Source: Isoetes taiwanensis (Eukaryota; Streptophyta; Lycopodiopsida; Isoetales; Isoetaceae). From it: 64,000 bases of DNA. The notes under the pieces are model-generated. The model saw nothing but the letters and a program-made list of their open reading frames with translations. It had not been told where the DNA came from and did no database searches. Positions 3,321 through 59,572 of the stretch are shown in pieces. Position numbers and translations under genes: made by a program. Each line of letters opens with the position of its first letter. The first letter of the stretch is position 1. The DNA lies in contig JAJEKV010000149.1 in the NCBI GenBank assembly GCA_021234155.1, forward strand, positions 1 to 64,000. The letters are read 5' to 3'.

Positions 3321-5487
3321 CAAGCGAAAAGTCGGTATAAGGTAATTTTACGGTAGGGAAGGCCAAGGCCAAATCTTTCATAGTCGATGGGCTTCGGGGA
3401 AGTAGCCATAACTTTGCATCCCCGGAATGGTTGAAATGTTGAAGTTGAAACCACTAAAGTCAAAGCCAAGGCCCGTTGTCTTAGCAAGTGTGGGCGATAA
3501 AGGCGGCGGCCGGCGTGCAAAAGAATTAACCGACATCGACTTGCCGGGGATTAATATCGGATAGGGGGCAGAAGTAATGGGCATTGGCAAGTAAATACGA
3601 CTTGATCATAGGAATGGAGTACCTTGGACCAGCAGGGGCCATTATTGATTGTGGAAAGCGGAAGGTGACCTTCCCAACACCCGACGGCAAGATCATTGAG
3701 ATCACAGGTAAAGAAGTTGTTCCCATCATGCAATGTATGTCTTCTAAGCGGCTGTTCAAGTGCATCAAGAGCGAGCAGGTAGCATACATCTTCAAGCTTG
3801 AGATTGAAGAACCGGAGTTGGAACAAAGCAAAGAAGACAAGGTGCTCAGCAAGTTGCCGAAGCAAATAGCTAAATTGATCACGGAGTTCCATGATCTCTT
3901 TCCAGATGAGATCAAGCAGCTTCCTCCTTACAAGGGAGTCGAGTGTGAGATAGCACTTTCGAACCGGGGAACAAAGCGACAAGCAAGGCTCCATACGAGA
4001 ATGGACGACGCAGGAGTTGGCCGGAAATCGAAGAAGCAATTGCAGGAGTTGCTCGACCTAGGCTTCATTAGACCTAGCGTCTCGCCATTTGGAGCACCCA
4101 TTCTCTTTGTAAAGAAGAAGGATGGCAGTTTAAGGATGTGCATAGATTATAGGCAATTGAACAAGCACACCATTAAGAACAAGTATGCGCTTCCCAGATC
4201 ATATGACTTGATGGATCAGCTCCAAGGTGCAAAGGTCTTCTCAAAAATCGACTTAAGGTCGGGTTATCATCAGATCAGGATAAAGGAAGAAGATATCCAT
4301 AAGACGCCTTGACGGCGGTATGGGCATTATGAGTTCCGCGGTAATGCCTTCTCGCTTATCGAATGCCCCCAGCGGCGTTCATGAGGCTCATGAGCGACAT
4401 CTTGGGGAGTTTTAGACACTTTTGTGATTGTATTCTTTGCGACATTTTGGTGTATAGCAGATCCCTTGAAGAGCACGCATTACAACACTTAAGGAGAGTG
4501 CTAGAGAAGTTGAAGAGGCACCGGTTATGCGCCAAGTTGTGAAGTGTCACCGCGCGAAGAGAAGGTGGAATACCCGGGTCATGTGATCTCGCCAGAAGGA
4601 ATCTCGGACGGATCCCCGCTAAGATTGAAGCGGCTATCATTGATGGCCGCAACAGAAGAATGTGCATGAAGTGAGAAGTTTTTCGGCCTAGCGGTACTAC
4701 AGGAAGTTCGTGGAAGAACTTTGCTAAGATAGCGGCCCCCGCCAGACTTGGACTTGGCGGAGAAAGGTGAAAAGAAGGCGAGCATTGGCACAAGAAAGCT
4801 GGCTGGGGTTTGAATTGTTGAAGGAAGCTTTAACAAGCCTGATCCTAACCCTTAGGACCCGTGAGAAAGATAAGCTTGTAGCAGACGGCGAGTAAGATAG
4901 CTACAGGCGCAGTGCTCATGCAAGAAGAGCGCGTGTGGTAGCGTCGACTCGGGAAGATGAACGACGCCGAAACGCCGCAGCTACCGAACGCCACGATCGA
5001 ATTGCTTGCGGTTGTCAGGGCATTAAGAATTTGGAGGCACTATCTTTTGGGAAGGAAGTTCCAATTGGATCTGAGACCATCAGAGCCTCCATTATATATT
5101 CGCAACCACACCTCAACCCGAGGAAAGAGAAGGTGGATGGAATTCCTTGAGGAATATGATTTTGATATAGTCTACAAGCGGGGAAGCTCAATGTGGTAGC
5201 GAATGCGCTTTTCAAGGCATCCCCGACAACTAGAGTGCATTGCAATGCAATTTCGGCGCTCTCGGCCCGATTTTGGTAAGAAGATTGAAGAGTCCTTGCC
5301 AACGGATGTGGATTTCGAGGAAGTATGGGCAAGCCTCTCTAGGGAAGCTAGAACGGATAAAAGAGGGGAAGCCTTTAAACATTATAAGAAGGAAGGCAAC
5401 CTGTTATACCATAAGAACAAGTTGTGCGTAGCCGAATCATCAGGTGTAAGGAAATTGATCCTCCATGACACGCTGCTCCTAGATTAG
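3320..5487 (+). pseudogene. pol: Ty3/gypsy pol remnant: protease, RT, RNase H, start of integrase
   Basis: The order is protease-RT-RNase H-integrase. The protease shows an eroded active-site region near 3379-3430 (GSSHNFASPEWL) and the downstream block [20 protein letters not shown] (from about 3600). RT is the clearest part, an open frame at 3584-4312 with [40 protein letters not shown] and [15 protein letters not shown], the conserved Ty3/gypsy blocks. The frame breaks at about 4312, just before the expected KTAF block. RNase H is visible at 4960-5200 (ELLAVVRALRIWRHYLLGRK, RRWMEFLEEYDFDIVYKRGS). The start of integrase is at 5203-5487 (LLYHKNKLCV). The YVDD catalytic region survives only partly (about 4390-4450). 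The element ends abruptly at about 5487; the integrase core and 3' LTR are not recognisable. Confidence 0.85.
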
Positions 5488-28105: not shown

Positions 28106-29604
28106 ATGCCCATAGCACTTTGTTTTAGTTTCAGAGAACTCATCCACTCTAAGTTTTTGCCAGGAAATGTGACTGCAAGGGCCAGAAATTATAGCAAGTT
28201 TGTTACCAGATCACCGTCCTTGGCCAGTGACAACAAATTGGGTTTTGCGGAAATGACTTCTTCTAAACTCAGTAAGGATGCCAAATTGAAGATCTTTGAA
28301 AGCGTTGAAGAACTATAGTGGAGTTTGGCGAATCACATTGCAAAGCTGTCTGCCAATTCTATTAAAGACAGGGGAGCTTTTTCTGTTGCATTATCTAGCG
28401 GTTCTCTTATTAGCGCATTAGGGTAAGCACATTTCTCAGATTATTAAGTTAGAAAACGCGGATGCGTAGAGTGGCCAAAGGAAAGCTCTTTTTTGTTTTT
28501 TCTGAATTGCATATGCATCTGAGAGACTTATATCTCATGTATTTGACGTTTTGTAGTTCATATATAAAGGGAGGTTTCCTTTTCTGTCATCCATTGTCGT
28601 ATGCATTTAGTATATGTTTCACTAGTAATGCTCCTCGGATTTTACTAAGTTAGCATATCATAATTCGTCTTGTTTCGGCAAAAAATCCATGCATTTTATC
28701 AAGCTTCTAGAATAGATATTTTGTATATTTTATTTATTTGCTGATTCCAGGAAGTTGCACGAACCTAAACACCATGAATCTATAGATTGGGAAAAATGGC
28801 ATGTGCTTTGGGCTGATGAACGAGTTGTGCCTAAAGATGATAAAGAGAGCAACTATAGGCTGGCCAGAGGTCTTCTTTCTAAGGTACATTAACTTGGATT
28901 CGGAAAATGCCAGTTTTGAGGATTCCAATAGACCTTTTTCTGCTATGCAAATAAGCATACCTATTGGTCATGTATATACAATCAATAAAGTGCTTAATGC
29001 AGCTGAAGATTATGAACGTTGTTTAACGCAACTTGTGAAGACAAAAATGGTGGATGTTTCTGAAGATGGATTTCCCAGATTTGATTTGATATTGCTAGGG
29101 ATGGGACCTGATGGACATATTGCATCATCATTTCCTAACCACCCTCTTGTGAAGGAGACAGAAAAATGGATAACTCACATACTTGACTCGCCAAAACCAT
29201 CGCCCGAACATATTACAATGGGCTAGTTTTCATTTTGCAGCCCCCCACCCCTTCAAAATTGGAAAAGCTTTTCCCGGCAGTTTTTTTCATGTTTTGAACA
29301 CTTCTCGATGCTTTTTATCTGTTTTCTTTTCCTTTTTTTTCCTGTTTTTTCTTCATCTGCAATTTTTCGGTAATGTTTTCTTTTTGGGGCATGTAAACCA
29401 AAAGTCTTCCTTACAATGATGGTTCCCGTGATAAATGCAGCAGCAAACACCATTTTTGTGGCTACTGGGTTTGGCAAAGTGGATATGATGAAAAAGGTAT
29501 TTGGCGAGAAACTGCCACCACTGGAATTACCAGCACAAATGGTGTTTCCTTTCAAGGGGAGTGTCATTTGGTATGCCGATAAAGCAACAGCCACCACTTT
29601 ATAG
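28106..29604 (+). pseudogene. PGL: 6-phosphogluconolactonase, non-processed pseudogene
   Basis: PGL hydrolyses 6-phosphogluconolactone in the oxidative pentose phosphate pathway (plastid or cytosol). Exon 1 runs from ATG 28106 to a GTAAG donor after 28422, with a Ser/Arg-rich N-terminus that could be a transit peptide, then LSKDAKLKIFESVEEL and SVALSSGSLISALG. Exon 2 (28751-28883) reads WHVLWADERVVPKDDKESNY. The next block reads IPIGHVYTINKV and FDLILLGMGPDGHIASSFPN, the family signature. The last block (from 29419) reads MVPVINAAANTIFVATGFGK and ends ATATTL-stop at 29604. There are three lesions. An in-frame TAG lies at 28316-28318. About 70 nt after exon 2 has no GT-AG pair that keeps frame. 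A 198-bp disruption begins at 29221. Introns are retained, so this is a duplicated copy, not a retrocopy. Confidence 0.8.
29221..29410. mobile_element. Small insertion in the PGL copy with 8-bp duplication TTACAATG
   Basis: TTACAATG occurs at 29213-29220 and 29411-29418. Removing the 190-bp insert and one repeat (198 bp, a multiple of three) joins the two PGL blocks in frame (HITM to MVPVINAAAN). The insert is pyrimidine-rich and brings an immediate TAG. Its ends (GGCTAGTTTTC and the inverse of GGAAGACTTTTGG) are only weakly alike, so the transposon class is unclear. A GC-AG intron (about 29222-29403) would also keep frame but would need a poor donor. Confidence 0.55.
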
Positions 29605-30251: not shown

Positions 30252-31872
30252 TGTAACGAACCTAGTGGCTTACTTTGTCTCAGTATAAGAGGGTGTAGAT
30301 CATCTAACGGCCTTGTTGATATGCGTCCATGGGTTATGCTAGTAGTGGCATTTAAAACTATAGAAATGTATTGGCAAAGGTTATATAAGCAGAAGGTGTT
30401 AGATTAATGTGTAGTGGACTTATAAAATATGCTAAACATGCATTAGATTGCATGCATATACATGCACATGTGCATGCATGCATGTGATTGCATGCACAAC
30501 ACTTGTCTAGCATGCATGTACATGCACATGCGCATGCACGCATATGATTGCATGCACGACACTTGTCTAGCATGCATATGCATGGAGATGTACTCATTGT
30601 GTATATATATTGGATGTGAACAAAGGAGAGGGTGCCTTGGTTTGGTGAAGGATCTTGTTTATTGTTCTCCTCTGCCGATTCTCTAGAGAAGGAGAGGATG
30701 GCCGAATTGTGGAACAGTAGCAGAAACCGGAAAGAGTTTGCAAATGGAAAGGCAATGAGGAAATAGAAGCAAGGAAGATAGACCCAGTTAATAAGAAGTG
30801 GAATCAATCCGAGAAACTGAGGTGGGGATTTGACGCGTGCTTGGGGATTTGATGAGTGCTTGGTCTATTGTATTGCTTGGTTATGCTTCTAGTAGAATAT
30901 GTGAATTATCTCTAGGACGTTAGTGTAATTATGGTATTACCTGGAAGATATGGTTGCTTATATGTTAAGGGAGTTCCTGTTCTTGCTTTGAGATGTGCAA
31001 TGATGTGTTGTCACTTGGATATGAAATATCTTGGTATGAACCTCATTCTATTGTATTGCATTGTTTTGTGGTTGTTCTTGGACGTAAGATGTATTGTAAA
31101 GTCATGATGGATGATGTTGCATCTTGCATTGCAAACGGACCACCTTCGGAGGGGTGGAATGGCCGTGAGACTCCGCATCCGGCCAGATGGCCTGTTGGAT
31201 GGCATATTGCATTTGCGGCCCACCTTCGGAGGGGTGGGGTGGCCGTGTAGACTCCGCATCCGGCCAGAGAGCCTGTTGGATGAGTTTAGCCCTGTACGTA
31301 CAGATGGAGAGAGTGGTCCCCTTGGGGTCGCAACCCAAGGATTACGCTTGGCATATGTGCATACATACAGAAGATTGATGTGAATGTAAACATGCTTGTA
31401 GCCTGAGTTCTAACTAATGCAGGGGCGTAGTGGAGCAGGTAAAATTGTTGTTGTTCTTATCTTTGATGGTTATGGTAGATTACCCGGTGGTTGATGTTGT
31501 GGATGCTCCCAAATGTTCCCCCCCACTTAGTCCTTGTGGACTAACCCCTTATGTTGTTTGTGTATGTTTAAGATGGCACGCCCGAAATGAGAATGCAAAG
31601 ATTCGGATGGAGAGTCTAGGGATGGGGGTGCGACAGCAGGAGCGTTTTCCCGAGTCATCCTCAGTGACCTATAAGGTTGGAGAATTCGGAGTGACCTGTT
31701 AAGCTAAAGGAGTTGTAGTATGCCAAGACTCAGAGGAGTTTGGTCTTGTATGTAATTATCTGATCAATGGGACTATACTTTATTGAGCATGTATATAAGT
31801 CTCATGTATGTTTAACTTAGATGTTAAACGTGTTGGTGCAATGGCCTAGGCCAAGGGGCTAGGTCCGTTTCA
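30252..31872 (+). repeat. LTR 1, with RY-motif cluster and TATA boxes
   Basis: A 1621-bp LTR. TATA-like sequences occur at 30381-30388 (TTATATAA) and at 30601-30610 (GTATATATAT). Between them, at about 30429-30585, CATGCA/TGCATG words recur more than a dozen times in two related ~75-bp units, each ending ACACTTGTCTAGCATGCAT. CATGCA is the RY element bound by plant B3-domain (ABI3/FUS3-type) factors. Short frames through this cluster (Met/His/Cys-rich) are artefacts of the repeat. Confidence 0.88.
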
Positions 31873-33187
31873 GTTGGTATCAGAGCGGAAAGTTCCGACA
31901 CCTTCGGGCCGTGGGAATTAGGAGCTAAGAGGCTAAGAGTTCAAGAGATTCTACTATAAAGTAGAACGGTTTGTTGTTTGGTAAATGCACTGGCCAAGAT
32001 AAGTTAAGAGCAACAAGAAACGGGCATAGGACTAAGGGATTGATAGTATCTTAAGTTTTGATTATTATTCTATGCTATGTAAGGTAGAAAAGCTAATGGA
32101 ATGCAGTTCATCAAGGAGCTAAACTTGGTCTAAAGTTACGGAAAATAGGATGAAATGTTAAGTCGAATGTTTTCATGCAAGGCATGGACAGCGGGCCATG
32201 ATAATTGTGAAGGTATGTTCCTACAAATTTCTATAATTGGTAGATTGTCTAATGGTGGACCACGTTGCCGCATTATTTTAAAGTAGACCATGTGTAGGGA
32301 GTTGTAGTGCTTTAGCAAAATCAATGCTAGGGTTGTGAGGGCCCATGAACAGTGCTTAAAGAGGTAAACTCGAGGGTTTAGGAAGTCGTTAGCTATGTTG
32401 AGTAGGTTCTTTTTGTGAGAAGTCATAGTAAACTATGTTCATAATCTTTTAGGTTCCCTTGAATTTACTTGTGTGGGTTGTATAGCCATAAGATACACAG
32501 ATGGGGGATGTGATTATGTTTTTATTTGTCTCTTTTGGATTGGCCACCCAAAACGTGTCATATGAATACATATCTAGTCTGAGCTGAGTATCTCTCTTGC
32601 CATGGTGGAGTTAGTATTTCATAATGTGCTATTTTATTCTTAGTAGGAAAAAGTGGATTAACCCTATAATGCAGATGTTTGCTACGTCAGCTTGAACATG
32701 TGTAGTAAATAATTTATACGAATTTCATAAATGGTTTAGTTCCAAACTTTATACATGCTAGTGGCAAGGTTGATGCACTTACTTGTATTTTGAGTATGTG
32801 GTAGATTAAGTTGCGACTGCACCAATTTCGTCAGAAACAGTAGAGCTTAAGCCATATGTAGGTTAATGAGGAAGTTGTTGTATAATGTGGAAGGGTATTG
32901 GGAATACCCATGTTCTATTGCTATTGTGGCAGAAATGTGCAATTGAGAAGACTGCATCAGAACATAGCGGAGGCTCAGAATCACCAAAAGCCATATGTGG
33001 ATAAGAGATGTAAAACCATAGAGTTGGCTAAAGCTTAGTCTTTTGCATTTAAAAGTAGTAGAAGCAGTGTTAGCCCACATTGAAGCAGTGCCTTATAAAG
33101 TAGAGTTATGCCACATATTAAGGTTGAAGAAGCATGTGTACCTCAAGTAACTCATGAGGACATGAGTTGAATTTTACAAGGGGAGAA
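31873..33187 (+). repeat. Internal region 1 of the tandem LTR element
   Basis: Begins with the tRNA-Met primer-binding site (TGGTATCAGAGC at 31875-31886) and ends with a purine tract next to LTR2. It is mostly non-coding, with a decayed gypsy integrase C-terminal stretch at about 32960-33170. Confidence 0.88.
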
Positions 33188-34804
33188 TGTAACGAACCTA
33201 GTGGCTTACTTTGTCTCAGTATAAGAGGGTGTAGATCATCTAACGGCCTTGTTGATATGCGTCCATGGGTTATGCTAGTAGTGGCATTTAAAACTATAGA
33301 AATGTATTGGCAAAGGTTATATAAGCAGAAGGTGTTAGATTAATGTGTAGTGGACTTATAAAATATGCTAAACATGCATTAGATTGCATGCATATACATG
33401 CACATGTGCATGCATGCATGTGATTGCATGCACAACACTTGTCTAGCATGCATGTACATGCACATGCGCATGCACGCATATGATTGCATGCACGACACTT
33501 GTCTAGCATGCATATGCATGGAGATGTACTCATTGTGTATATATATTGGATGTGAACAAAGGAGAGGGTGCCTTGGTTTGGTGAAGGATCTTGTTTATTG
33601 TTTCTCCTCAACCGATTCTCTAGAGAAGGAGAGGATGGCGAATTGTGGAACAAAGAGCGTAAACCGGAAAGAGTTTGCAAATGGAAAGGCAATGAGGAAA
33701 TAGAAGCAAAGGAAGATAGACCCAGTTAATAAGAAGTGGAATCAATCCGAGAAAACCGAGGTGGGGATTTTGGCGTGCTTGGGGATTTGATGAGTGCTTG
33801 GTCTATTGTATTGCTTGGTTATGCTTCTAGTAGAATATGTGAATTATCTCTAGGACGTTAGTGTAATTATGGTATTACACGGAAGATATGGTTGCTTATA
33901 TGTTAAGGGAGTTCTGTTCTTGCTTTGAGATGTGCAATGATGTGTTGTCACTTGGATATGAAATATCTTGGTATGAACCTCATTCTATTGTATTGCATTG
34001 TTTTGTGGTTGTTCTTGGGCGTAAGATGTATTGTAAAGTCATGATGGATGATGTTGCATCTTGCATTGCAAACGGACCACCTTCGGAGGGGTGGAATGGC
34101 GTGAGACTCCGCGATCCGGCGGATGGCCTGTTGGATGGCATATTGCATTTGCGGCCCACCTTGGAGGTGGGGGTGGCCGTGTAGACTCGCATCCCGGCGG
34201 AGAGCCTGTTGGATGAGTTTAGCCCCTGCACGCGTCTGGATGGAGAGTGGTCCCTTGGGGTCGCAACCCAAGGATTACGCTTGGCATATGTGCATACATG
34301 AAGATTGATGTGAATGTAAACATGCTTGTAGTATGAGTTCTAACTAATGCGGGGCATAGTGGAGCGGGTAAAATTGTTGTTGTTCTTATCTTTGATGGTT
34401 ATGGTAGATTACCTGGTGGTTGATGTTGTGGATGCTCCCGAAATGTTCCCTCCCCACTTAGTCCTTGTGGACTAACCCCCTTATGTTGTTTGTGTATGTT
34501 TAAGATGGTACGTCCCGAACCGAGAATGCGATGATTAGGATGGAGAGTCTAGGGATGGGGGTGCGACATGAAAGGAGGCGTTTTCGAAGTCATCCTCGGT
34601 GACCTATAAGGTTGGAGGAGGAGTGACTGTTAAGCTAAAGGAGTTGTAGTATGCCAAGACTCGGGAGGAGTTTGGTCTTGTATGTAATTATCTGATCAAT
34701 GGGACTATACTTTATTGAGCATGTATATAAGTCTCATGTATGTTTAACTTAGATGTTAAACGTGTTGGTGCAATGGCCTAGGCCAAGGGGCTAGGTCCGT
34801 TTCG
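33188..34804 (+). repeat. LTR 2 of the tandem LTR element
   Basis: The middle LTR. The first 390 bp or so are identical to LTR1. Differences are short scrambles (for example CTCCTCTGCCGATT becoming CTCCTCAACCGATT). The adjoining primer-binding site is altered here (TTAAGTATCGAGGCGG). Confidence 0.87.
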
Positions 34805-36118
34805 ATTAAGTATCGAGGCGGAAAGTTCCGACACCGCCGGGCCGTGGGAATTAGGAGCTAAGAGGCTAAGAGTTCAAGAGATTCTACTATAAAGTAGAAC
34901 GGTTTGTTGTTTGGTAAATGCACTGGCCAAGATAAGTTAAGAGCAACAAGAAACGGGCATAGGACTAAGGGATTGATAGTATCTTAAGTTTTGATTATTA
35001 TTCTATGCTATGTAAGGTAGAAAAGCTAATGGAATGCAGTTCATCAAGGAGCTAAACTTGGTCTAAAGTTACGGAAAATAGGATGAAATGTTAAGTCGAA
35101 TGTTTTCATGCAAGGCATGGACAGCGGGCCATGATAATTGTGAAGGTATGTTCCTACAAATTTCTATAATTGGTAGATTGTCTAATGGTGGACCACGTTG
35201 CCGCATTATTTTAAAGTAGACCATGTGTAGGGAGTTGTAGTGCTTTAGCAAAATCAATGCTAGGGTTGTGAGGGCCCATGAGCGATTGCTTAAAGAGGTA
35301 AACTTCAAGGGTTTAGGAAGTTGTTAGCTATGTTGAGTAGGTTCTTTTTGTGAGAAGTCATAGTAAACTATGTTCATAATCTTTTAGGTTCCCTTGAATT
35401 TACTTGTGTGGGTTGTATAGCCATAAGATACACAGATGGGGGATGTGATTATGTTTTTATTTGTCTCTTTTGGATTGGCCACCCAAAACGTGTCATATGA
35501 ATACATATCTAGTCTGAGCTGAGTATCTCTCTTGCCATGGTGGAGTTAGTATTTCATAATGTGCTATTTTATTCTTAGTAGGAAAAAGTGGATTAACCCT
35601 ATAATGCAGATGTTTGCTACGTCAGCTTGAACATGTGTAGTAAATAATTTATACGAATTTCATAAATGGTTTAGTTCCAAACTTTATACATGCTAGTGGC
35701 AAGGTTGATGCACTTACTTGTATTTTGAGTATGTGGTAGATTAAGTTGCGACTGCACCAATTTCGTCAGAAACAGTAGAGCTTAAGCCATATGTAGGTTA
35801 ATGAGGAAGTTGTTGTATAATGTGGAAGGGTATTGGGAATACCCATGTTCTATTGCTATTAATGAAATGTGCAATTGAGAAAGGCATCGAGAACATAGCG
35901 GAGGCTCAGAATCACCAAAAGCCATATGTGGATAAGAGATGTAAAACCATAGAGTTGGCTAAAGCTTAGTCTTTTGCATTTAAAAGTAGTAGAAGCAGTG
36001 TTAGCCCACATTGAAGCAGTGCCTTATAAAGTAGAGTTATGCCACATATTAAGGTTGAAGAAGCATGTGTACCTCAAGTAACTCATGAGGACATGAGTTG
36101 AATTTTACAAGGGGAGAA
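34805..36118 (+). repeat. Internal region 2 of the tandem LTR element
   Basis: Near-identical to internal region 1. The few differences are clustered, for example around 35278-35290 and 35868-35895. It ends with the purine tract before LTR3. Confidence 0.87.
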
Positions 36119-37721
36119 TGTAACGAACCTAGTGGCTTACTTTGTCTCAGTATAAGAGGGTGTAGATCATCTAACGGCCTTGTTGATATGCGTCCATGGG
36201 TTATGCTAGTAGTGGCATTTAAAACTATAGAAATGTATTGGCAAAGGTTATATAAGCAGAAGGTGTTAGATTAATGTGTAGTGGACTTATAAAATATGCT
36301 AAACATGCATTAGATTGCATGCATATACATGCACATGTGCATGCATGCATGTGATTGCATGCACAACACTTGTCTAGCATGCATGTACATGCACATGCGC
36401 ATGCACGCATATGATTGCATGCACGACACTTGTCTAGCATGCATATGCATGGAGATGTACTCATTGTGTATATATATTGGATGTGAACAAAGGAGAGGGT
36501 GCCTTGGTTTGGTGAAGGATCTTGTTTATTGTTCTCCTCTACCCGATTCTCTAGAGAAGGAGAGGATGGCGAATTGTGGAACGATGCTTGGCAGGAAAGA
36601 GTTTGCAAATGGAAAGGCAATGAGGAAATAGAAGCAAAGGAAGATAGACCCGATTAATAAGAAGTGGAATCAATCCAGAAACCGAGGTGGGGATTTGTGG
36701 CGTGCTTGGGGATTTGATGAGTGCTTGGTCTATTGTATTGCTTGGTTATGCTTCTAGTAGAATATGTGAATTATCTCTAGGGCGTTAGTGTAATTATGGT
36801 ATTACCTGGAAGATATGGTTGCTTATATGTTAAGGGAGTTCCTGTTCTTGCTTTGAGATGTGCAATGATGTGTTGTCACTTGGATATGAAATATCTTGGT
36901 ATGAACCTCATTCTATTGTATTGCATTGTTTTGTGGTTGTTCTTGGACGTAAGATGTATTGTAAAGTCATGATGGATGATGTTGCATCTTGCATTGCAAG
37001 CGGACCACCTTAGGAGGGTGGAATGGCGTGAGACTCGCATCCGGCCCGGATGGCCTGTTGGATGGCATATTGCATTTGCGGCCCACAACCGGAGGGGTGG
37101 GGTGGCCGTGTAGACTCACGATGTCGGAGAGAGCCCTGTTGGATGAGTTTAGCCCTGCACGCATGGATGGAAGAGTGGTCCCTTGGGGTCGCAACCCAAG
37201 GATTACGCTTGGCATATGTGCATACATCTGAAGATTGATGTGAATGTAAACATGCTTGTAGTATGAGTTCTAACTAATGCGGTAGTGGGGAGGTAAAATT
37301 GTTGTTGTTCTTATCTTTGATGGTTATGGTAGATTACGGTGGTTGATGTTGTGGATGCTCGAAATGTTCCCTCCCCACTTAGTCCTTGTGGACTAACCCC
37401 TTATGTTGTTTGTGTATGTTTAAGATGGTGCGTCCCCGTGAGAATGCGATGATTAGGATGGAGAGTCTAGGGATGGGGGGGGTGCAATGAGGGAAGCGTT
37501 TTCGAGTCATCCTCGGTGACCTATAAGGTTGGAGACTTGAGTGACTGTTAAGCTAAAGGAGTTGTAGTATGCCAAGACTCAGAGGAGTTTGGTCTTGTAT
37601 GTAATTATCTGATCAATGGGACTATACTTTATTGAGCATGTATATAAGTCTCATGTATGTTTAACTTAGATGTTAAACGTGTTGGTGCAATGGCCTAGGC
37701 CAAGGGGCTAGGTCCGTTTCA
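36119..37721 (+). repeat. LTR 3 of the tandem LTR element
   Basis: The last LTR, 1603 bp, ending GTCCGTTTCA and followed directly by the target duplication AGTTT. Confidence 0.88.
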
Positions 37722-49710: not shown

Positions 49711-50469
49711 TAGACAGCCGCATGCTCCTTTAAGGCATGAACCACTAAAGCAATTAAGGATACCTCTTTCAATCGCCTTTTCTTGTAATTACAAAAATTA
49801 GAACTCTTACCAACCTAACAAATTTGAAAATGCAATCTACTGCAAGGAATGTAGAATAACAAAATAATTTCATAATCATTCTATATTTATGAAAGCAGTG
49901 AAACAACCTATAGCCCCGAAGTCCTAAGCTATAGAATATTGCTTACTGGCCGTCAAATTGGATTGCAGAATGATCTCGAAGCTGATGATGCAGTAGACTC
50001 TACTATCAAAACCAGGTGGATATCGAGACAAACAAATACTACGTAGCTTGTTGCTTTCAGACAGATAGAAGATATCAAGCTCGCCTTCAAATAGCTTGAT
50101 GTAGAGCTGAAGCCAGAACCTGCAGCAGAGGTCCCTGTAGTACTGGAGACACTGTAGTCCTAGATTGAAGCACAGGTGAACTTTAGCTACTCACTCGATA
50201 ATATGTCATCAAACAGTAATAGCTACCTAATAAGAGCAACATCTGCTAAAACATGATCTCAGAGTGCCTGCATAGAGTCAATTGATCTCAGTAGAAGTTT
50301 GTGTGCCTTCATAAGTGCGACCATGGTTTGCAGCCTACACGCTGAGGCCTCAAGATCATTTGCTTCTTAGACATAAAGATGTTCTTGTGATTGCAGCAAT
50401 GCTTTGCAGCCTTAGCTGAGTCACGATGATTTGCTTCTGAAACACAAAGTCGTTGTGCTTTTACATTTT
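49711..50469. other. Spacer, nothing recognised
   Basis: Only short frames and no motif. It may include an unrecognised upstream part of the LINE that starts to be readable at about 50470. Confidence 0.35.
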
Positions 50470-50970
50470 CACCTCATAATAGCACATTAGTAGCATCAAC
50501 ACAGCTATATGGATGTGAGACATGGGGGCCAGGTCTGTCAGAGAAGAAATGGGAAAAACAGGAAGGCATACTGAGGCAATGGCACGGACAGGAATTCCAG
50601 GTTAAGGTAGGTACATCATTAGCAACAATCATATATGAAACAGGGGAAAAACCAATGGAAGTGAGAGCATGGGAAAGAACAATCAGGTACCTAATAAAAG
50701 ATAACACTGGCAATAGATGAATCAGCAAAGCAACACATAGTAACAGGCAAGGGATGGTTTAATGAAGTGGCGAAGTGGACGGCAAGCATGGGGATGCAAC
50801 TAAGCCATATTATACAATACACCGGGGGGTGCACAAAGAGAGAGGGCTAATAATCTGAGAAGCACTGTTGAGGCGAATCAGAGGAGCCCACAAAGTACAG
50901 TTCAAAACTGTTTATAACGATGCATTTGTGTATGGCCAAGAAGCCAGCTATAAGCACGATGCGGGTATTA
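50470..50970 (+). pseudogene. LINE ORF2 C-terminal region, left half (split by the big transposon)
   Basis: The plus strand reads LYGCETWGPGLSEKKWEKQE, then VGTSLATIIYETGEKPMEVR and AWERTIRYLIK (about 50500-50710). This is the usual C-terminal pattern of non-LTR retrotransposon RTs (LYG-E-WG ... YE-G-PM). It continues degenerately to the transposon boundary at 50970. The right half of the same LINE resumes at 59410. Confidence 0.7.
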
Positions 50971-51050
50971 AACAAGATTGCGTATTAAACGGGAGCAAAT
51001 CATTGAAACGAGAGCAAAAGGAATATTCCTCAAAGATTCCCTTTTTTTTT
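50971..51050. repeat. Left terminal inverted repeat of the 8.4-kb transposon
   Basis: The outer 25 bp match the inverse of the right end with three mismatches. CAAAGATTCCC recurs in both ends near the inner edge; in the left end the intervening spacer is longer. Confidence 0.75.
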
Positions 51051-51344
51051 ACAAAAAAGGGGGTAAAATGAGGTTAAAAAAAAAAAAAGATGCATGAAAT
51101 TCTATTTGACCCCCAAAAATGACTAATTTTTTTTTGCAACGAAGGAATTGACTTTTTTAAAGTGTCACTTTTCTTAGCAAAAAGAATGTTCTTAAAGTAT
51201 GTTTTAAGAGAGAAACTCTAATTTCAGAGGATAAAATATTTAACAAAAAATTGAAGTAAGTCTGTAATTGAAACTGTAGTATTCTCAAAATTTGAAGATA
51301 GAATCTTCATATTCACATCAAAATTTACAGTCTTTTTCTAAGAC

Positions 51345-54300
51345 TCAGTTATGTGCAAAAGTGTGAGGAGTGATGAGAGAGGGATCCAGGACGTCTTCAT
51401 GTTCATTTATGCCATCGTCATCACCTTCACTTCTTTCACTGTCACTCGAGGAAGTGCTTGAGTTATCTTCCTCATCACTATCAACAGACGGTGAAGCATT
51501 GTCACCACCTTCTTCATCATCTTCTTCGTAATTACAAGCTTTTTAAGCAAATTGATAGTCTTCCGGCGTAGAGCGATTGTCGATTTCAATTTAAAATCAT
51601 AGCACAATATAGTCCGTCATTAAGGTTCAGCTCGTCCCTACAACCCACCTTCTTGGACTTTCTCCCTTTTCCTTGGCTTCTCATTTCTAACTCATATCTA
51701 CCTTCAAAAGCATTTTCTGAGCGTGTTGCAAGCCAATGAATCTTGAGTTTAGTGACTAAGCCTTCCTCCTTGACTGTGTCAAGCACTTTTGCTATCCAGA
51801 ACGGTCGACCTTTGTCATCCTCCTCAGTCGGAAGAGCAATTAGCATACCTTTGGTAATTTCTGTGATATTACCTTGGGGCTCATTCTGCGTCTTGGTCCG
51901 AGGGTACATGACTCGGTCCTCCTCGTCTTCTGCGTAGGTGCAAATGTAGCCTTCGCTTGGACCTGCTTAGTGCTTTGGGGTTGATGGAAGGTGTTAGGCC
52001 ATTGAAATGGTTCTTGCAACCGTCTTAGAGCTATATTTTGTACAACAATTTTATTCGAGAAAGAAATTACTCCACCACATCCGATCTTCTTCTAAGAAGT
52101 ACTTAAAGCTCGAGGAAATTCCATTTTCAATGGCTTTTAAGGATGATTCGGGGTACTTTTCTTTTACGCTTGGACTCCTTAGGATTTTTGAGAGGAAGTT
52201 GCTCAAAGACGTTCTATGAAGGAAGTGTCCGGAATATATTTAAGGAAGCGTAATCCCTCCTCAAGGACTCAGTCCTTAGTTGTGGTATACTTCTTCCCCC
52301 GTGAAGAAGCTTTGGCCATCCTTCAAGTAGAACTTGATATGATGTTGAAAGGTGAGATCATTCAACTTGTTCACTGACTTGTTCTCGTTTGAACGTTGAG
52401 AGAAAACAAACTCTCGAAATCGCTGATCTCTTTAAGAAGATCGACCAATTGGAGTAGGAGTGTAAGAATCTTCAATAATTCGAACTAAAGAAGGAAGGAA
52501 AAGCCTTCTTCCTTCTAAGGCGCCTGTAAAAATCTCTTTGAACATTTGGTCAATCTGATCATGAGTGTGGCCTACAAGTAAGAAAAGCTTCACTTTTCTA
52601 AAGATCCCTAGCTCCACTAACATGGCACTTGATCGCATAAAGAGTGTTTGATTCTTGTTCTCCCTTGTAGTATTGTCAAGTTGCAGATAAAGCACTGGTG
52701 GTAATTGCTCTTGCTCGCACAGGACCTTGTTAAGAATTGTAATTGTGAGGTTCGGGTCACCATGCAAGTTTGGATACGTCAAAAATACTTTGCACCTTAG
52801 ACTTCCTTTGAAGACCATAGCTCCTACAAGGTGGACCTTAACAAAACATTCCTCTGGCACATCTTTAGGAATGTTCAAGAAATGTGGTAGAGTTGTTTTT
52901 TTTTGGTCCATTCCATCAATCACAACAGACATGTATTGCAGTGGACGTTCAAGAGCTTTTTTTCTATGCTTGGCAAGCTTTCTTCTCTCTGCTGCTTGTT
53001 GTTCACGATGTCTGGCAAGGTTCTGTTGCACAATATCTGTAGAAGAAATCAGGTCAAAGCATTTTCTCTGAAACAAGTGAGAGATTGGAGAACATGAACT
53101 TACTTCTTTCGACCTCTGTCTTTTGCGGTTTTCGTTGACTCTTTAATTACGCACACCTCGAGCAAAACAGACATTCTATGTTTTCTAGGAATTTTCACAA
53201 GACCGAATTCACTTTTCCACGTCACGGTGAAGTGTGAGTAAGAGATGTCTTTGAAGTGAGTGCAAGTCTCTTTGTACTCATTAAAAACATCTTTTTGGTG
53301 ATGTTATCGGTTAAATGATACATGTTCTTTGTTAGGTAGCTTCTCACATGTTTCTCTAAAATATTTCTCCATCCATGACACAAAGAGCAAGGGCATGCAT
53401 GGTTACAACTCTTCTTGGTCCACAATGATCATCGATTCTTTGGATTTTTGTCCGTCTTTTGTGTATTCTAGACATTCTTGTGGACCCTAAGCGGTGGACA
53501 ACCATAAAACATTTCGGCAAACTTCTTGGCCGGTTAATGTAGTGCAAGAAGGTGTTGCGGTGCGGTCTTACATGATAAGCTAAGTAGGCATTCTGGTCTC
53601 CGCCAATGTCATGGAAGCTGTAGTTGTCTCTAAGCGCTCGTAATTTAGCCATGTTAAATCTGTTGATGCAACCCAATGAGCAGCATTTAGTTCTCAAAAG
53701 TCTCCTCATTTTCTGTTCATCCATAAGATTTCTTCTTCTACAGAGGAGCAAGCCCTCAAACCAAAATCCACCTTGAATTTCTTTGAAGATTGGTTGGAGA
53801 ACATGTAATCTCTTTGTTCCTCGTTGGTGTCTTCATCTTCCGATGAAACTTCTACTCGGGGGTGACTTCCTCGTCACGAGTGGTGTGCTTGTAGAGGAAA
53901 ACAGACCCGCGTGAAGTTGTTCCCGGAATAGGCGGGGTATAGTGTTAAAGGGTGGTGATGGCCCATAAGAGGTTGTGGCATCATTTGTTCTTGTACCATC
54001 TTGAAAAGGAGTTCTTGCAAACATCTCCTTTAGAGCGGATTTGGAATTTCGCAAATCCATGTGTCACAACCGTTGTTGTGTGAAGAGGAGTGCATGCTGG
54101 AGCTTCGTCTTCATTTGTAGTGAAGTCCTGGTGAGAGAAATTGTAGTGAATCTCACAGTCTTCTGTGTTTTCTGTGTTCCTTGTATGTTTTACGAAGCGA
54201 GGCTAAACTACAAAAGGGGGGGGTAGCTTGTTCTTGAGCACCCTTTGTTGTGGAGCTTCTGTAGGTCCGGGGGATGGAACGAAGGGTGGTGGCAGCATGC

Positions 54301-54580
54301 TCCGAACTGGTGGTGATGCTTTGGAAGGAGATCCCAGTGGCAAGTCTACTGAACTTGGTGACGGTTGGAAGGGTGGTGGAAGTCTGTTACGTGCTGGACT
54401 CGGTGTCTTTTCAAGAAGCAAGAACGATGAAGTAGAGGTAGGAGTCGGAGAAAACCGGTCTTCAGAAGAAACGACGTTGGTCCCGAGTGTGTCCTCAGAA
54501 CTAGACGAGCTTGAGACAACGAAAGGTGGTGGAAGTTTGTTGACGGCGGTTTGTCATCTTAAGAACGCAAAGCGATTGTA
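51345..54580 (-). pseudogene. Transposase-like protein (RNase H-fold-like, D..D..GHTH family), reading frame broken as written
   Basis: Probably the transposase that moves the element. N-terminal part: a Pro-rich region with LPPPF repeated at least four times (54545-54205). Next comes a Cys segment KCCSLGCINRF (about 53690-53660), as in a zinc-binding module. The core at 53076-52432 reads MSVVIDGMDQKKTTLPHFLN, PPVLYLQLDNTTRENKNQTL and FLLVGHTHDQIDQMF. This D / DN-x4-ENKN / GHTH-x2-ID pattern occurs in a family of transposon-associated eukaryotic proteins that I recall as DUF7869 (name from memory). Near 51880-51690 a C-terminal domain (GMLIALPTEEDDKGRPFWIA) resembles BAH or chromatin-reader-like tails. 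An acidic Ser-rich tail ends FAHN-stop at 51345. Several short frameshifts split these parts; the start is unresolved. Confidence 0.65.
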
Positions 54581-54609
54581 GAGTTTAGATAATGTTTCTC
54601 TCTTCGCAG

Positions 54610-54810
54610 AGCTTTTCTTATTCGAATACAAGCCCGCCTACTACAAGTAGAAGTTCCCGCAACAATTAAGCGAAAGGCAAACTAAAAGCTATTCGAATAC
54701 ACTAGAAGCGAACAAGTAAGGCCAAAGCGTATTCCACTTCACATAGAAAACGAGCAAGGCGGAATGGACACCTTTAAAAGGAAATTTTGGCGCCTTGGGT
54801 TGCGTATTCC
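54610..54810. repeat. Scattered TATTCGAATA palindromes upstream of the transposase gene
   Basis: CTTATTCGAATACAAG (about 54618) and GCTATTCGAATACAC (about 54689), plus the half sites GCGTATTCC (54728) and GCGTATTCCGG (54803). They share the core of the larger arrays in this element. Confidence 0.65.
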
Positions 54811-54959
54811 GGTCTACGAGCTGAAGTCGCCCGGCCAAATCGACCGATTATAATATTGAAATGTATTAGATACTCATAGAGAAAACATGGAGAGGTGAGT
54901 AAGAAAGTACAAAGGTACAATCATTTGTGTGTTTGTTTCTTATTCGGAATACGTCGCCT

Positions 54960-55240
54960 TAAAGCGAAAGTGTATTCGAGGAATACACTTCGACTTTCAC
55001 CTTTTCAGCGAAAGTGTATTCCGGAATACACTTTCGACTTTCACCTTCTAGGCGAAAGTGTATTAGAATACACACTTCGAGGGGAAAAGCGTCGCGTGTC
55101 AGGAATACACTTACGCCTGAGGAAAGGGTAAGTGTATTTCGAATACACTTAAGCCGAGGAAAAGCGAAAAGTGTATTAGGAATACACTTTTCGCCTTCCC
55201 CTCAAAGGCTAAAGTGTATTAGGAATACACTTTTCGTGTT
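54960..55240. repeat. Palindrome array A (about seven GTGTATT-GAATACAC sites) between the divergent genes
   Basis: Sites lie near 54966, 55009, 55052, 55100 (half site), 55129, 55164 and 55210, spaced about 29-46 bp apart. The best is a perfect palindrome, CGAAAGTGTATTCC and its mirror (55010-55035). Several are flanked by CGAAA/TTTCG, lengthening the stem. The position between the two gene starts suits a shared regulatory region or transposase-binding sites. This is not a CRISPR array: repeats are palindromic and short, spacers are not uniform, and there are no cas genes. Confidence 0.85.
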
Positions 55241-55593
55241 CTTATGTTTTGTAAAGGTTACTTTTAAAGTGATTTTTGTAGTAACTTTAGGCGTTTTTTC
55301 TGCTTCTAAAACTTGTTTAGACCTGTTTTTTTTGTCAAGATTGCAGTGTTGTTTTGGCATTTTTGTCCTCTTTTTGCCCTCGTTTTTTCCTTTTCGCAAG
55401 ACATTTTATATTCTGGAATAGTTTTTTGCCACTGCTTTCTCTAACAAGATCGTGTTTACACACAATTTACCTGAGACAAAGAAGGCAGCAAGAAACAACA
55501 CAAGAGGACCGTTAAAATCCCAACGAAACCGCACCCACAGAGAAGGGTTGAGGAGACATCTGCGCCTGCTATCTACGAAAACTTTCAAACTCA

Positions 55594-58500
55594 ATGGTTT
55601 TTTACAAGGGGTACTTCTGGAAAGTACAGCACACTTACTTTCCTACATGTCGCAGTCTTTGCTGGAGCAAAAGGTACGATGAGAGGGAATTTGTGCGCAT
55701 GGGCACCATCCGGGCCGTGGAGTGAAGTAGCCGGGGAGTCCGGCCAGCCGAGGGAGACTGTCTTTTCGAGACATCCCAAAGCTTTATTCATGTTGATGAA
55801 TCCTATTTTAGAGTGGTGAAAGTAAATCCTCATCCTCTATATAAGTATGTTTCTCACTACCTCGAGCAAGAGGTCTGGCCTGTGCCATCATCAACTACGT
55901 TCAAGCTAATAACGAGCGAAGACTTCCCCTACAACGAGTCATCACAAGGGGAAGAGGATGACCAACCGAGCCCGAGCGATTGCATCATCACAACAACGGG
56001 AGTCCATCGGTCAGGCGGAAGGCCACCGTCACCACCACCAAAGAAGCGGCAAAGGGAAGCGATTCTTCGCTAAAGAGCCTAAAAAAGCGAGACGGCTTTA
56101 ATTGCGTGAGGAGAGGATATTTCCGAGGAACCTAAGAAGAAGAAGGGGAAGGGTAAAGCACCTGGTGTTGCTATTAAGGAAAAAAGTTGACAAAACAATT
56201 TGAAAAGATGGAAGAGATTAACCTGCACAAGTTTGTGCAAGGTGTCATTTATTTGCCAGTCACTTCAATGAAGCTTCCACCAGAAAAATGAAGCTGGTGA
56301 AAGGCCACTTCAGGTTCATAAAATTTATGCCGATCACTTAAGGAACTGAAAGCGAGAATAAGGAGCAATCCAAATGCTCATGTGGCCCCAATAGTTGTCC
56401 TTGTTGGCCGGGGAGCGTGCACAACCCCCCAGGACTATGACAGAGAAAACGCTGACACCTACACTCACTACGTCTTGGGAGGGAATCATAGCTTCAAGGC
56501 AAGAAGGCAACTTTACAAAGAAAAGAAGAACCCAAGGTACCTCTCCGTCCTCTGCGCTGTCTACTGTGGTCTTACAGATGAAGAAGCAAAAATCGTTGCC
56601 AACACCCACAATGCTGACAACGAGTACAAACTAAAGATGAGCTTTGTCGACAAGATTCGGTTTATGCGGGAGTATGTAATTTTCAAGGGAAAAAATGCGG
56701 TGAGGACCTTAAGAAGCCCCGTTTTCGTTGGAGCTTAAGGGGCGTGTGCCATTGAATCTTGCACTGAAATATGGCCGAGGCCAACAAAAGCGATCTCTCA
56801 TTGGCCCACGACAAGCTGGTTCCATTAGCTTTTAGAGATGGCAAGGTAAGCACAAAATGTATTCGGAATGGCAAATCAACTATTTAGCGTGAATCTTCTT
56901 GAACAGATTTGGGAACTCAGGACCCGGATATTTACAATGTTGGCGAGGGGAGTTAAAGAGCAAGGGAAAAGGAGACTAAGAAAAAACCTCGGGCGTACCC
57001 AAAAAAAAAAATGACCATTACCGTCGGGGGGAAATGCGAGGGCTTCTCGGCACGCGGAGCTTCTCGAGCAACTTCTCCAAAAAGTTGTTGATAAGGAGTT
57101 TAGCCTAGAAGAAATGTCAAAGGAATTGCACAAGTAAGTTCTCGACACAAACATTAGTCTTTGCATGTTAGATTCCCAAAAACATACGTAGCTAGTGTAT
57201 TCGAATACACATGCCTTCCTTTACCACGGGCAATGTGTATTAGGAATACACATTGCTTGTCTCTAGAAAGGCATTGTGTATTAATACACATTACTGTCAA
57301 TGAAGGAAGGCATGTGTATTCGGAATACACATTGCTCCTCCTCGAATGTTGGCACGTGTGATACGGAATACGCATGCGTTCCTTTAGAGAAGCAATCGTA
57401 TTAGGAATACACATTGCTTTTCTAGAGACAAGCAATGTGTTTGTCCCGCTTGAGAACTATTTTACGCATATTGTTTCGAGGTAGCATCACAAGTTAACCG
57501 GTTTGTATTCGAATACAAATAGCTTGACTTTTATTTGTTTTTTTTCACGTTGCCTTCATTCTTTCGTTTAAACTCATTGTTTCCTTAACGTCTTGCAGAC
57601 CAAAAGAAGCGTCATAACATGTCAAACATGTTTGATGGAGCAACTAAACGTCGACACATGGGAAAGGTGCAAGGAACTCTACCCAATTGCCACATCCGAC
57701 GAAATGATTTGTGCAATATTCACCAAATTTTGAGGGGCTGGGTAATTACTCTTAGAATTCCTTTTCTCTGCACAAAGCGATCTCTTGGCCGGTTGTTGTT
57801 TTGTTTTTCTTTAGAGCAAAAAAAAAAATAAAGACCTACCCGAGGGCTTTATGAATTTGGTTAGAACAAAGACGGAAGAGAGGTCGTTGAAAAAAGAATG
57901 TTGAGCGAGAACCATCCGACTACGAGAGATTCTGCATGTTTGATCAAAACAATTTATATTCAATCATTCATGGTGATTGCACGAACCTTGTCGGAATGGT
58001 TAAGCCACAGGACTTTACTTTGGTTATTGCTGATCTTCCCTACGGGTTTAAGCTTAAAAGACGCTAGAATCGACGACCACCCTTCAAATTTTCAGAGTTT
58101 AATGCTTTCATTGAAGGAATCAAGCAGATCTCAACGGCCAAACATTGGCGTTTAGTTACGTTCCATTCGAGCATGCAGTCTGGCTTGGTGGAATCAGCTT
58201 TCAAAAATCACTTTGGTTCTCCATTCAAGGCGGGATATGAAAACCTTGTGCGGTAAGTCTTATTCGAAGTACAATTACTTTTCTCTTTAATTACGTAGTG
58301 TGTATTAGGAATAGTATTTTCTGTTTTTACGGTTTTGAAGTGTTTTCTTGTTTTTTGCTAACATCACTTTAAATGCTTCACTAGGTACAAAACGAACATC
58401 AACTACCATGGTGGAGGACCAAGGTTGCTCAGCAAGGTAGAGTACCTTCATGTAGCTTATTGGAGTTTTGATGGGAAGAGGACCATGGAACACTTTAACA

Positions 58501-59057
58501 CTTGCCGCTTTGTCAAAAACTTTTCAAGCGTCCTAGAGTTTCCAGCGGTCTTCTGAGAAATTGCAGGACCCAAGTGCACAAGGCAAGATTGTGAATCACT
58601 ACCAAAAACCAAAAGCTCATCAACCATCTCACGGACATGTTCTCGCGTCCGAGGAGATTGGGTGCTTGATGCTTTCTCCGGTTCCAGTACTACTATCGCA
58701 TGTGCACTTAAGAAGGGCCATGAATCGTAGCCGTGGATATTGATAAGGAGGCTGTGCATTTTGTGAAGATGAGGCCGGGCTGCCTTACCTACTTTACCGG
58801 ATGAAAATCAAGAGTTAGGGGCCAAGTCTTCATCGATTATGCTAAACTAACGTCCTCGGAGAATCTGACCTCCATTCTCGAGCTCACTAGACGACGAGGC
58901 AACCTTTGCTTGAGCTTAAAAAGTAGCTTTAGCTACCATTCAGGAGAACAAGGAGGATACAAAACTTAAGTCTCCAGCAAAGGAGCAGATAGAACAGAAG
59001 GACGAGCCGGCAGAGAGCAGCAAAAAGAATGAGGAGGACTATGATGTAGATCTTTGA
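55594..59057 (+). pseudogene. ParB/sulfiredoxin-like domain fused to a DNA amino-methyltransferase; frames broken as written
   Basis: ATG 55594 opens MVFYKGYFWKVQHTYFP. An acidic and basic linker follows, with KKRQRE near 56045. ParB-like domain, 56195-56700: LHKFVQGVIYLPVTSMKLPP, EAGERPLQVHKIYADHL, ARIRSNPNAHVAPIVVLV, VLGGNHSFKARRQLY and CGLTDEEAKIVANTHNADNE. The methyltransferase follows: YSIIHGDCTNLVGMVKPQDF, VIADLPYGF (catalytic DPPY variant, about 58020-58046), WRLVTFHSSMQSGL, YHGGGPRLL, KPKA (motif X region), then DWVLDAFSGSSTTIACALKK (motif I, about 58659-58716). Motif order IV-X-I fits beta-class N6-adenine or N4-cytosine enzymes. The acidic tail ends EEDYDVDL-stop at 59057. GT-AG introns: 56846-56906, 57134-57598, 57742-57814 and 58253-58384. 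At least five small frame breaks; these may be sequence errors. Confidence 0.7.
57190..57440. repeat. Palindrome array B, within an intron of the ParB-methyltransferase gene
   Basis: About seven sites with the core GTGTATT-GAATACAC, here flanked by GCAAT/ATTGC or GCAT instead of CGAAA. The clearest is GCAATGTGTATTAGG with its mirror at 57230-57255. A related TTTGTATTCGAATACAAA lies at about 57501. All fall inside the intron 57134-57598. Array A uses the same core with different outer arms. Confidence 0.82.
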
Positions 59058-59339
59058 CTACTGCATATTAAAAGTATCATTATTTATTACAATGAATCTT
59101 CAATATTGATGTACAACAATTTATTAAAAACATAATACTTTTTTTTCCTTTCTATTCTGGTGCTTTTTTTTTGTAATGCTTTCAGTCTCTTCAAGTCTAT
59201 GCCTAAATTTCGCTATTTTTATGATTTCTATTTCATAAGTACAAAGTTTTCGTCTAATGATGGGCCAAAATGGCATGAAAAAAAATGCGAACCTCCATAA
59301 ATTCTCAACAACTATCAAAAAAGGCTTATTTTAGAAACA

Positions 59340-59409
59340 TGGTATTTTTTTAAAGGGAATCTTTGAAACGGGAGTGATGCAACACTCCCGTTTAATTTGC
59401 AATCGTGTT
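59340..59409. repeat. Right terminal inverted repeat of the 8.4-kb transposon
   Basis: Contains the inverse of the left outer 25 bp (three mismatches) and the subterminal AAAGGGAATCTTTG block. The region also holds its own palindrome, AAACGGGAG...CTCCCGTTT, at 59367-59393. Confidence 0.78.
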
Positions 59410-59572
59410 ATTATTATAAAGAACAAGAGAAGCCTGCTAGATGGCTACATAAACCTATGCGTCTGTTTGCTGGCAGCACCTTTTTGGGAGCTCGCAGGAT
59501 GCTACACAAGTCCGGGGGCCTCACGGCCTGAGGGACGTTAATGTATATTCTATTCTATTCTAATAAAGTAGG
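59410..59572 (+). mobile_element. LINE 3' end, right half, with (TATTC)n tail
   Basis: This continues the LINE interrupted at 50970. It ends with a stem-loop-capable GGGGGCCTCACGGCCTGAGG, then GACGTTAATG and a short ATTCTATTCTATTC tail. The ending resembles those of the other LINE copies here (GGCC hairpin, GAC-TTAAT/GATAAAA, microsatellite) but is a different subfamily. Confidence 0.65.

Follow-up and report, generated by a model that had tools for sequence, protein, structure and literature searches.

A decayed cut-and-paste transposon of Isoetes taiwanensis with a bacterial-type DNA methyltransferase gene, a probable ParB-like domain and internal palindrome arrays

Why would a plant DNA transposon carry a DNA methyltransferase gene of bacterial type, and on what DNA would such an enzyme act? 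The question is raised by an 8.4 kb element at 50971..59409 of a 64,000-nucleotide stretch of the Isoetes taiwanensis genome (assembly GCA_021234155.1, contig JAJEKV010000149.1, positions 1 to 64,000, forward strand; hereafter the window). An initial annotation had read the element as a transposon carrying a ParB-like domain fused to a methyltransferase. We favour, at a probability of roughly 0.6, the reading that this fusion protein would bind palindrome arrays within its own element and methylate the element's own DNA.

The element is one decayed copy in a numerous family of cut-and-paste DNA transposons. Its 25-bp terminal inverted repeats (50971..50995, plus strand, and 59385..59409, minus strand) are identical at 22 of 25 positions, and flank comparison places a 4-bp target site duplication, ATTA, on the left at 50967..50970 and on the right at 59410..59413, all of which the initial annotation had correctly noted. 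A 28-nt subterminal palindrome at the right end (59366..59393, minus strand), written as a pattern with one N, has 229 exact occurrences in the plant's own genome (1.66 Gb, 1110 contigs), a count from which diverged copies are missing; a control pattern has none. From 100 listed right-end places we took 20 as 10-kb stretches, placing the left ends of copies ourselves at the AAC of the terminal repeat. The left end went unrecognised in eight of the 20, at least one of which (L023) extends past its stretch. In all 13 two-ended copies, the window copy and 12 of the 20 fetched, the 4-bp flanks are identical, against 1 of 247 in a shifted-comparison control, and 12 different 4-bp words are represented; terminal inverted repeats with target duplications of fixed length are the ends of a DDE/D cut-and-paste transposon. 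By tblastn, the fetched places hold matches to the methyltransferase in 20/20, to the ParB-like domain in 17/20 (in L024 a fragment only) and to the family transposase in 14/20. Eleven of the 20 combine both ends with all three, bearing out both the predicted transposon with a modification gene of its own and the predicted further copies with the same ends and genes. The window copy itself has both genes broken by frameshifts and stop codons. The family is Sola-like in its 4-bp duplications, a likeness that rests on duplication length, such duplications being a stated feature of Sola2 (PMC3627910). The additional claim that a long interspersed nuclear element is split exactly at the ends found no support: the open reading frame (ORF) at 50430-50720 has no Pfam match, and the window contains no empty copy of the joined flanks.

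The transposase gene, overlooked in the initial annotation, lies on the minus strand. Its catalytic region (52432..53142) is a DUF7869 domain (PF25273) with a predicted Mos1/integrase fold, an RNase-H-like catalytic domain with conserved acidic residues as in DDE/D transposases. The C-terminal part (51586..51966) was recognised by blastp (P0083, E 1.2e-9; P0028, E 1.2e-7) and the N-terminal exon region (53356..53832) as an open frame present in other copies, neither having a Pfam match. When the DUF7869 region was compared with 5.8 billion proteins, 138 were matched and 120 listed; a scan of viral contigs gave no relative. A 341-aa DUF7869 ORF of a different element (L025:4370-5392, E 2.3e-27) stands beside a family copy without a recognised left half.

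The plus strand carries the second gene, predicted to encode an N6-adenine or N4-cytosine DNA methyltransferase in which motif IV lies ahead of motif I. The gene is interrupted by four GT-AG introns (56846..56906, 57134..57598, 57742..57814 and 58253..58384), as initially described, with GT and AG kept in most readable copies (12/12, 9/12, 13/14, 27/28, 33/34, 27/31, 34/36 and 32/32). Motif IV (DLPYG) falls in the exon at 57815..58252, delimited by codon bias and intron borders, and motif I (here DAFSGSSTT) in the last exon at 58385..59057, which was identified by PF01555 and whose stop codon was read from the sequence; both frames are broken in the window copy. In the window the motifs read VIADLPYG and VLDAFSGSSTT, within reading frames that lie between 57936 and 58730, and the order IV then I recurs among the copies read (DLPYG in 26/36, DAFSGSGTT in 13/38). 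PF01555 (N6_N4_Mtase) matches the window read-through, with X at the breaks, at E 5.7e-10 and 40 bits (cut-off 26.7), over its last quarter only, the motif I part; the same part of the unaltered last-exon ORF of another copy (L012) matches at E 5e-17 and 63 bits. The motif I half also matches a set of 76 phage proteins (96%, E 2.4e-9), and for this half the methyltransferase identity, though predicted, is firm. Residues 8-214 of the read-through align to phrog_67 (E 2.3e-7), and the read-through aligns over 91% to the methyltransferase of phage FP_Mushu at 24% identity (E 1e-5). The target base we take to be adenine more probably than cytosine because the motif is DLPYG rather than SPPY, as known for this enzyme family.

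Comparison of 41 right ends (one from the window, 20 from long stretches and 20 from short ones) found methyltransferase sequence at 39 and, from pairwise identity tables, separated two classes: 24 ends are of class A and 14 of class B (L011, L024 and L127 partly), one is ambiguous (L030) and two have little or no match (L129, L131). Pairwise comparison of 12 copies gives methyltransferase DNA identities of 68-76% across the class boundary and of 80-93% inside a class; for the ParB exon the division is less sharp, at 73-82% across the boundary. Single-linkage clustering at 80% placed 38 of the 41 ends in one group with the classes unseparated, because L030 reaches that threshold against copies of either class and bridges the two. 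The transposase half has no class split, class B L012 being 93% identical there to class A L014 and L028. Since both methyltransferase classes occur on one transposase half, the identity pattern suggests a cassette exchange, and it would be best explained if the right part had been swapped on a transposase half common to both. Over the right 330 bp, L012 is 91-94% identical to class A. For L021 and L029 the identity to class A is 79-90% there, but they match one another at 94%, and in their case the exchanged segment may take in the right end.

Between the classes, with L030, L129, L131 and rows covering <60% set aside, the fraction of differing sites in the methyltransferase exons is 0.37-0.57 at third codon positions and 0.02-0.23 at first and second ones (.100/.079/.567,.226/.076/.427,.106/.057/.397 and.041/.018/.365 in four pieces). 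The ParB exon gives.119/.089/.263, and two non-coding controls are flat over all pairs (.119/.120/.103 and.069/.059/.071). Because its differences are concentrated at third positions, the enzyme was under selection; the pattern is large and shows that it was long kept by past purifying selection. The corresponding bias is weak in the transposase (.052/.039/.075; N-terminal exon region.056/.043/.102) and near nil in its C-terminal part (.059/.055/.073). We rejected the idea that the two classes represent diversifying target specificity, the classes differing mainly at silent positions.

What precedes the methyltransferase is a 138-aa ORF (56322..56738, plus strand) with sub-threshold profile matches to ParB. 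DUF6551 (E.0072), the TIGR03764 ParB model (E.0076) and the phrog_723 ParB model (E.14) align on overlapping residues. Set against the phage proteins, the profile of this domain aligned to their N-terminal domain at E.0038 and a probability of 8.7% (control against their methyltransferase part,.62), with an hhalign score of 24.26 reached by none of 200 column shuffles (maximum 21.1; reversed control 16.29); that phage domain was itself named ParB-like by eye, Pfam giving only the methyltransferase for the protein. The domain order and the intron borders fit a single ParB-like/methyltransferase gene, as predicted from sequence with a sub-threshold ParB call, and the domain is probably ParB-like and encoded with the methyltransferase as one protein. 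The same order is found in Pseudomonas phage Touem01 (L031), where an N-terminal ParB-like motif, read by eye, is followed by a PF01555 methyltransferase; enzymes of the Touem01 type differ in lacking introns and a transposase, in their distant sequence and in an N-terminal domain unnamed by Pfam. A block of a Mytilus edulis protein (P0059) is 35% identical to the domain over 100 positions and stands ahead of DUF7869 in one gene model, so the association may reach animals; P0059 is the only protein with such a block among the 120 DUF7869 proteins listed, and as a query it found no relative in viral contigs.

A similar pairing has been reported outside land plants. According to a 2025 paper (PMC12477816), Sola1-1_Ec32 of Ectocarpus has a gene for a ParB-like domain and an N4-methylcytosine (4mC)/N6-methyladenine (6mA) methyltransferase opposite its transposase, its authors propose that the protein binds and marks the element's own sequence, and Iyer 2011 and Petroll 2025 are cited for similar proteins in green and red algal transposons. 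The initial annotation knew of no described plant family with this pair; that claim falls in part, given the Ectocarpus element and the cited algal cases, and this kind of element is therefore known. Like the window element, Sola1-1_Ec32 is a DNA transposon with an oppositely oriented ParB-like/methyltransferase gene, but, going by its description, it is 21.5 kb long rather than 8.4 kb, belongs to a brown alga and encodes a 1104-aa protein. The portion of its description available to us does not mention palindrome arrays, codon selection or cassette exchange, for which no dedicated literature search was made. Two other groups of elements offer partial parallels. KDZ and other fungal transposons with a TET/JBP dioxygenase are likewise DNA transposons with a DNA-modification enzyme, although there the mark is oxidised rather than added and Zisupton duplications are 8 bp long (PMC12730594); chimeric Sola2-Fanzor elements share the 4-bp duplications and the arrangement of one common half with a different accessory half, but their accessory gene is Fanzor (PMC3627910).

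Where might such a protein bind? Two arrays of palindromic repeats, each with five strict units in the window, lie between the divergent genes (array 1, 55008..55236) and inside intron 2 of the methyltransferase gene (array 2, 57189..57525). Both, with the core GTGTATTCCGGAATACAC, are present in 12 of 12 copies scanned, that is, in the two-ended copies other than the internally shortened L019. The palindrome has GTGTATTCCGGAATACAC as its commonest form and arms such as GCAAA, and its units are mostly ~40 bp apart. Copies have 7-12 strict units, with 1-7 between the genes (only 1 in L020) and 4-7 in intron 2; the 18.7 kb of flank of the scanned copies has none, and all 10 units of the window are within the element. 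Genome-wide, the core has 2585 exact occurrences (control 0). The CCGG centre of the palindrome is frequently CCAG or CTGG, as would be expected if it is CpG methylated and decaying.

Proteins of the ParB family usually recognise palindromes, from which they spread. In the reading that we favour, the ParB-like protein would bind the arrays between the genes and in its own intron, and its methyltransferase would then mark the element's own DNA; the mark could tune the transposase promoter or distinguish element DNA from host DNA, for instance keeping host silencing off or timing transposition after replication. The initial annotation had likewise suggested a self-marking role for the enzyme, which is plausible and agrees with the presence of the arrays. 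A more specific, parS-like version of self-recognition is tentative and, we think, doubtful as a whole: the ParB-like methyltransferase would nucleate on the two arrays of 28-bp palindromes ~40 bp apart and mark the element with 6mA, the mark would time the transposase or hide the element from silencing, and the cassette would have been exchanged as a unit between lineages.

Several results weigh against the reading that the fusion protein binds and marks its own element. To begin with the arrays, no feature links them to the ParB-like protein over the transposase. Instead, the transposase or a host regulator may bind them, with the ParB-like methyltransferase acting elsewhere, for example at the ends or genome-wide; array 1 adjoins the transposase gene, and plant transposases commonly recognise clustered internal sites. 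Array 2, however, lies within intron 2 of the ParB-methyltransferase gene, and palindromes are what ParB-family proteins usually bind, and we regard this alternative as possible without favouring it. As regards the methyltransferase, its motif IV half, scanned as an ORF of L026, draws no separate Pfam match and aligns to the phage set in the correct register at a probability of only 1.5%, and the fused read-through query had no homologue among 5.8 billion proteins. As regards the selection test, the copy pairs compared are not independent, and single changes in the ParB ORF within class A are nonsynonymous in 540 cases and synonymous in 462; this excess, and a codon-position bias far smaller within class A than between classes, are as expected because copies decayed after insertion.

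The remaining adverse results concern the ParB-like domain. The family matches lie under their curated cut-offs wherever such values exist (DUF6551, 16.3 bits vs 26.8; TIGR03764, 15.9 vs 143.75), and it is here that the profile search proposed in the initial annotation, which upheld the methyltransferase through PF01555, left the name ParB unsupported at threshold. In a cleaner copy DUF6551 reaches E.0026 and 17.7 bits, still short of 26.8, and the ParB match in NCBIfam vanishes. The domain matched no solved structure and its ORF no homologue among the 5.8 billion proteins, and the AlphaFold model of the ORF (predicted local distance difference test score, pLDDT, 48.7) was too poor for a structure search; we dismissed the structure matches of this model as meaningless. 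From these results, from the low hhalign probability and from a phage comparison domain called ParB by eye, one could argue that this is an unrelated DNA-binding or dimerisation domain with no ParB relative. Also in keeping with that view, the cleaner copy matched only phrog_30771 among PHROGs (function unknown, E.065), neither Pfam nor NCBIfam nor PHROGs gave Mytilus P0059 a ParB match, viral and prokaryotic contigs scanned with the ParB alignment yielded no relative, and in phage tblastn the ORF went unmatched and the cleaner copy had three hits, at E 3 to 5. A single viral contig match to the ORF (L001) was dropped as chance, the region being phage tail-like. We consider an unrelated domain unlikely, given that three models align on overlapping residues, that the hhalign score exceeds 200/200 column shuffles, that the domain order is that of the phage protein and that the Ectocarpus authors term their domain ParB-like.

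A further alternative denies the gene any part in controlling transposition or silencing and makes it a self-interested passenger, such as an addiction or immunity module. Phages do carry bacterial-type methyltransferases, frequently preceded by an N-terminal domain that we read as ParB-like, and the cassette has seemingly been exchanged between element lineages. Against this stand the near-constant presence of methyltransferase sequence (39/41 right ends), the recurrence of the pairing with a transposase in Ectocarpus, and the failure to recognise a nuclease in the ten element frames scanned with Pfam, other frames not having been scanned; a pure passenger thus appears improbable to us.

The family suggests that a pairing mentioned only briefly for algae recurs in a land plant, and its ParB-like part may also stand beside DUF7869 in a mollusc gene model. 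Sequence-specific adenine methylation in multicellular eukaryotes is disputed, and a numerous family with a selected bacterial-type methyltransferase and candidate binding arrays offers a precise place to look; should the arrays or ends prove to carry 6mA or 4mC, the mark would gain a candidate writer and known sites.

Elsewhere in the window, a reverse transcriptase fragment (RVT_1, E 2e-10) lies at 3578-4312, an exon of a 6-phosphogluconolactonase-like gene (PF01182, E 2e-22) at 28786-29226, and three copies of a repeat unit, ~2.93 kb apart and each with the same tandem-repeat block, at 30449-36458.

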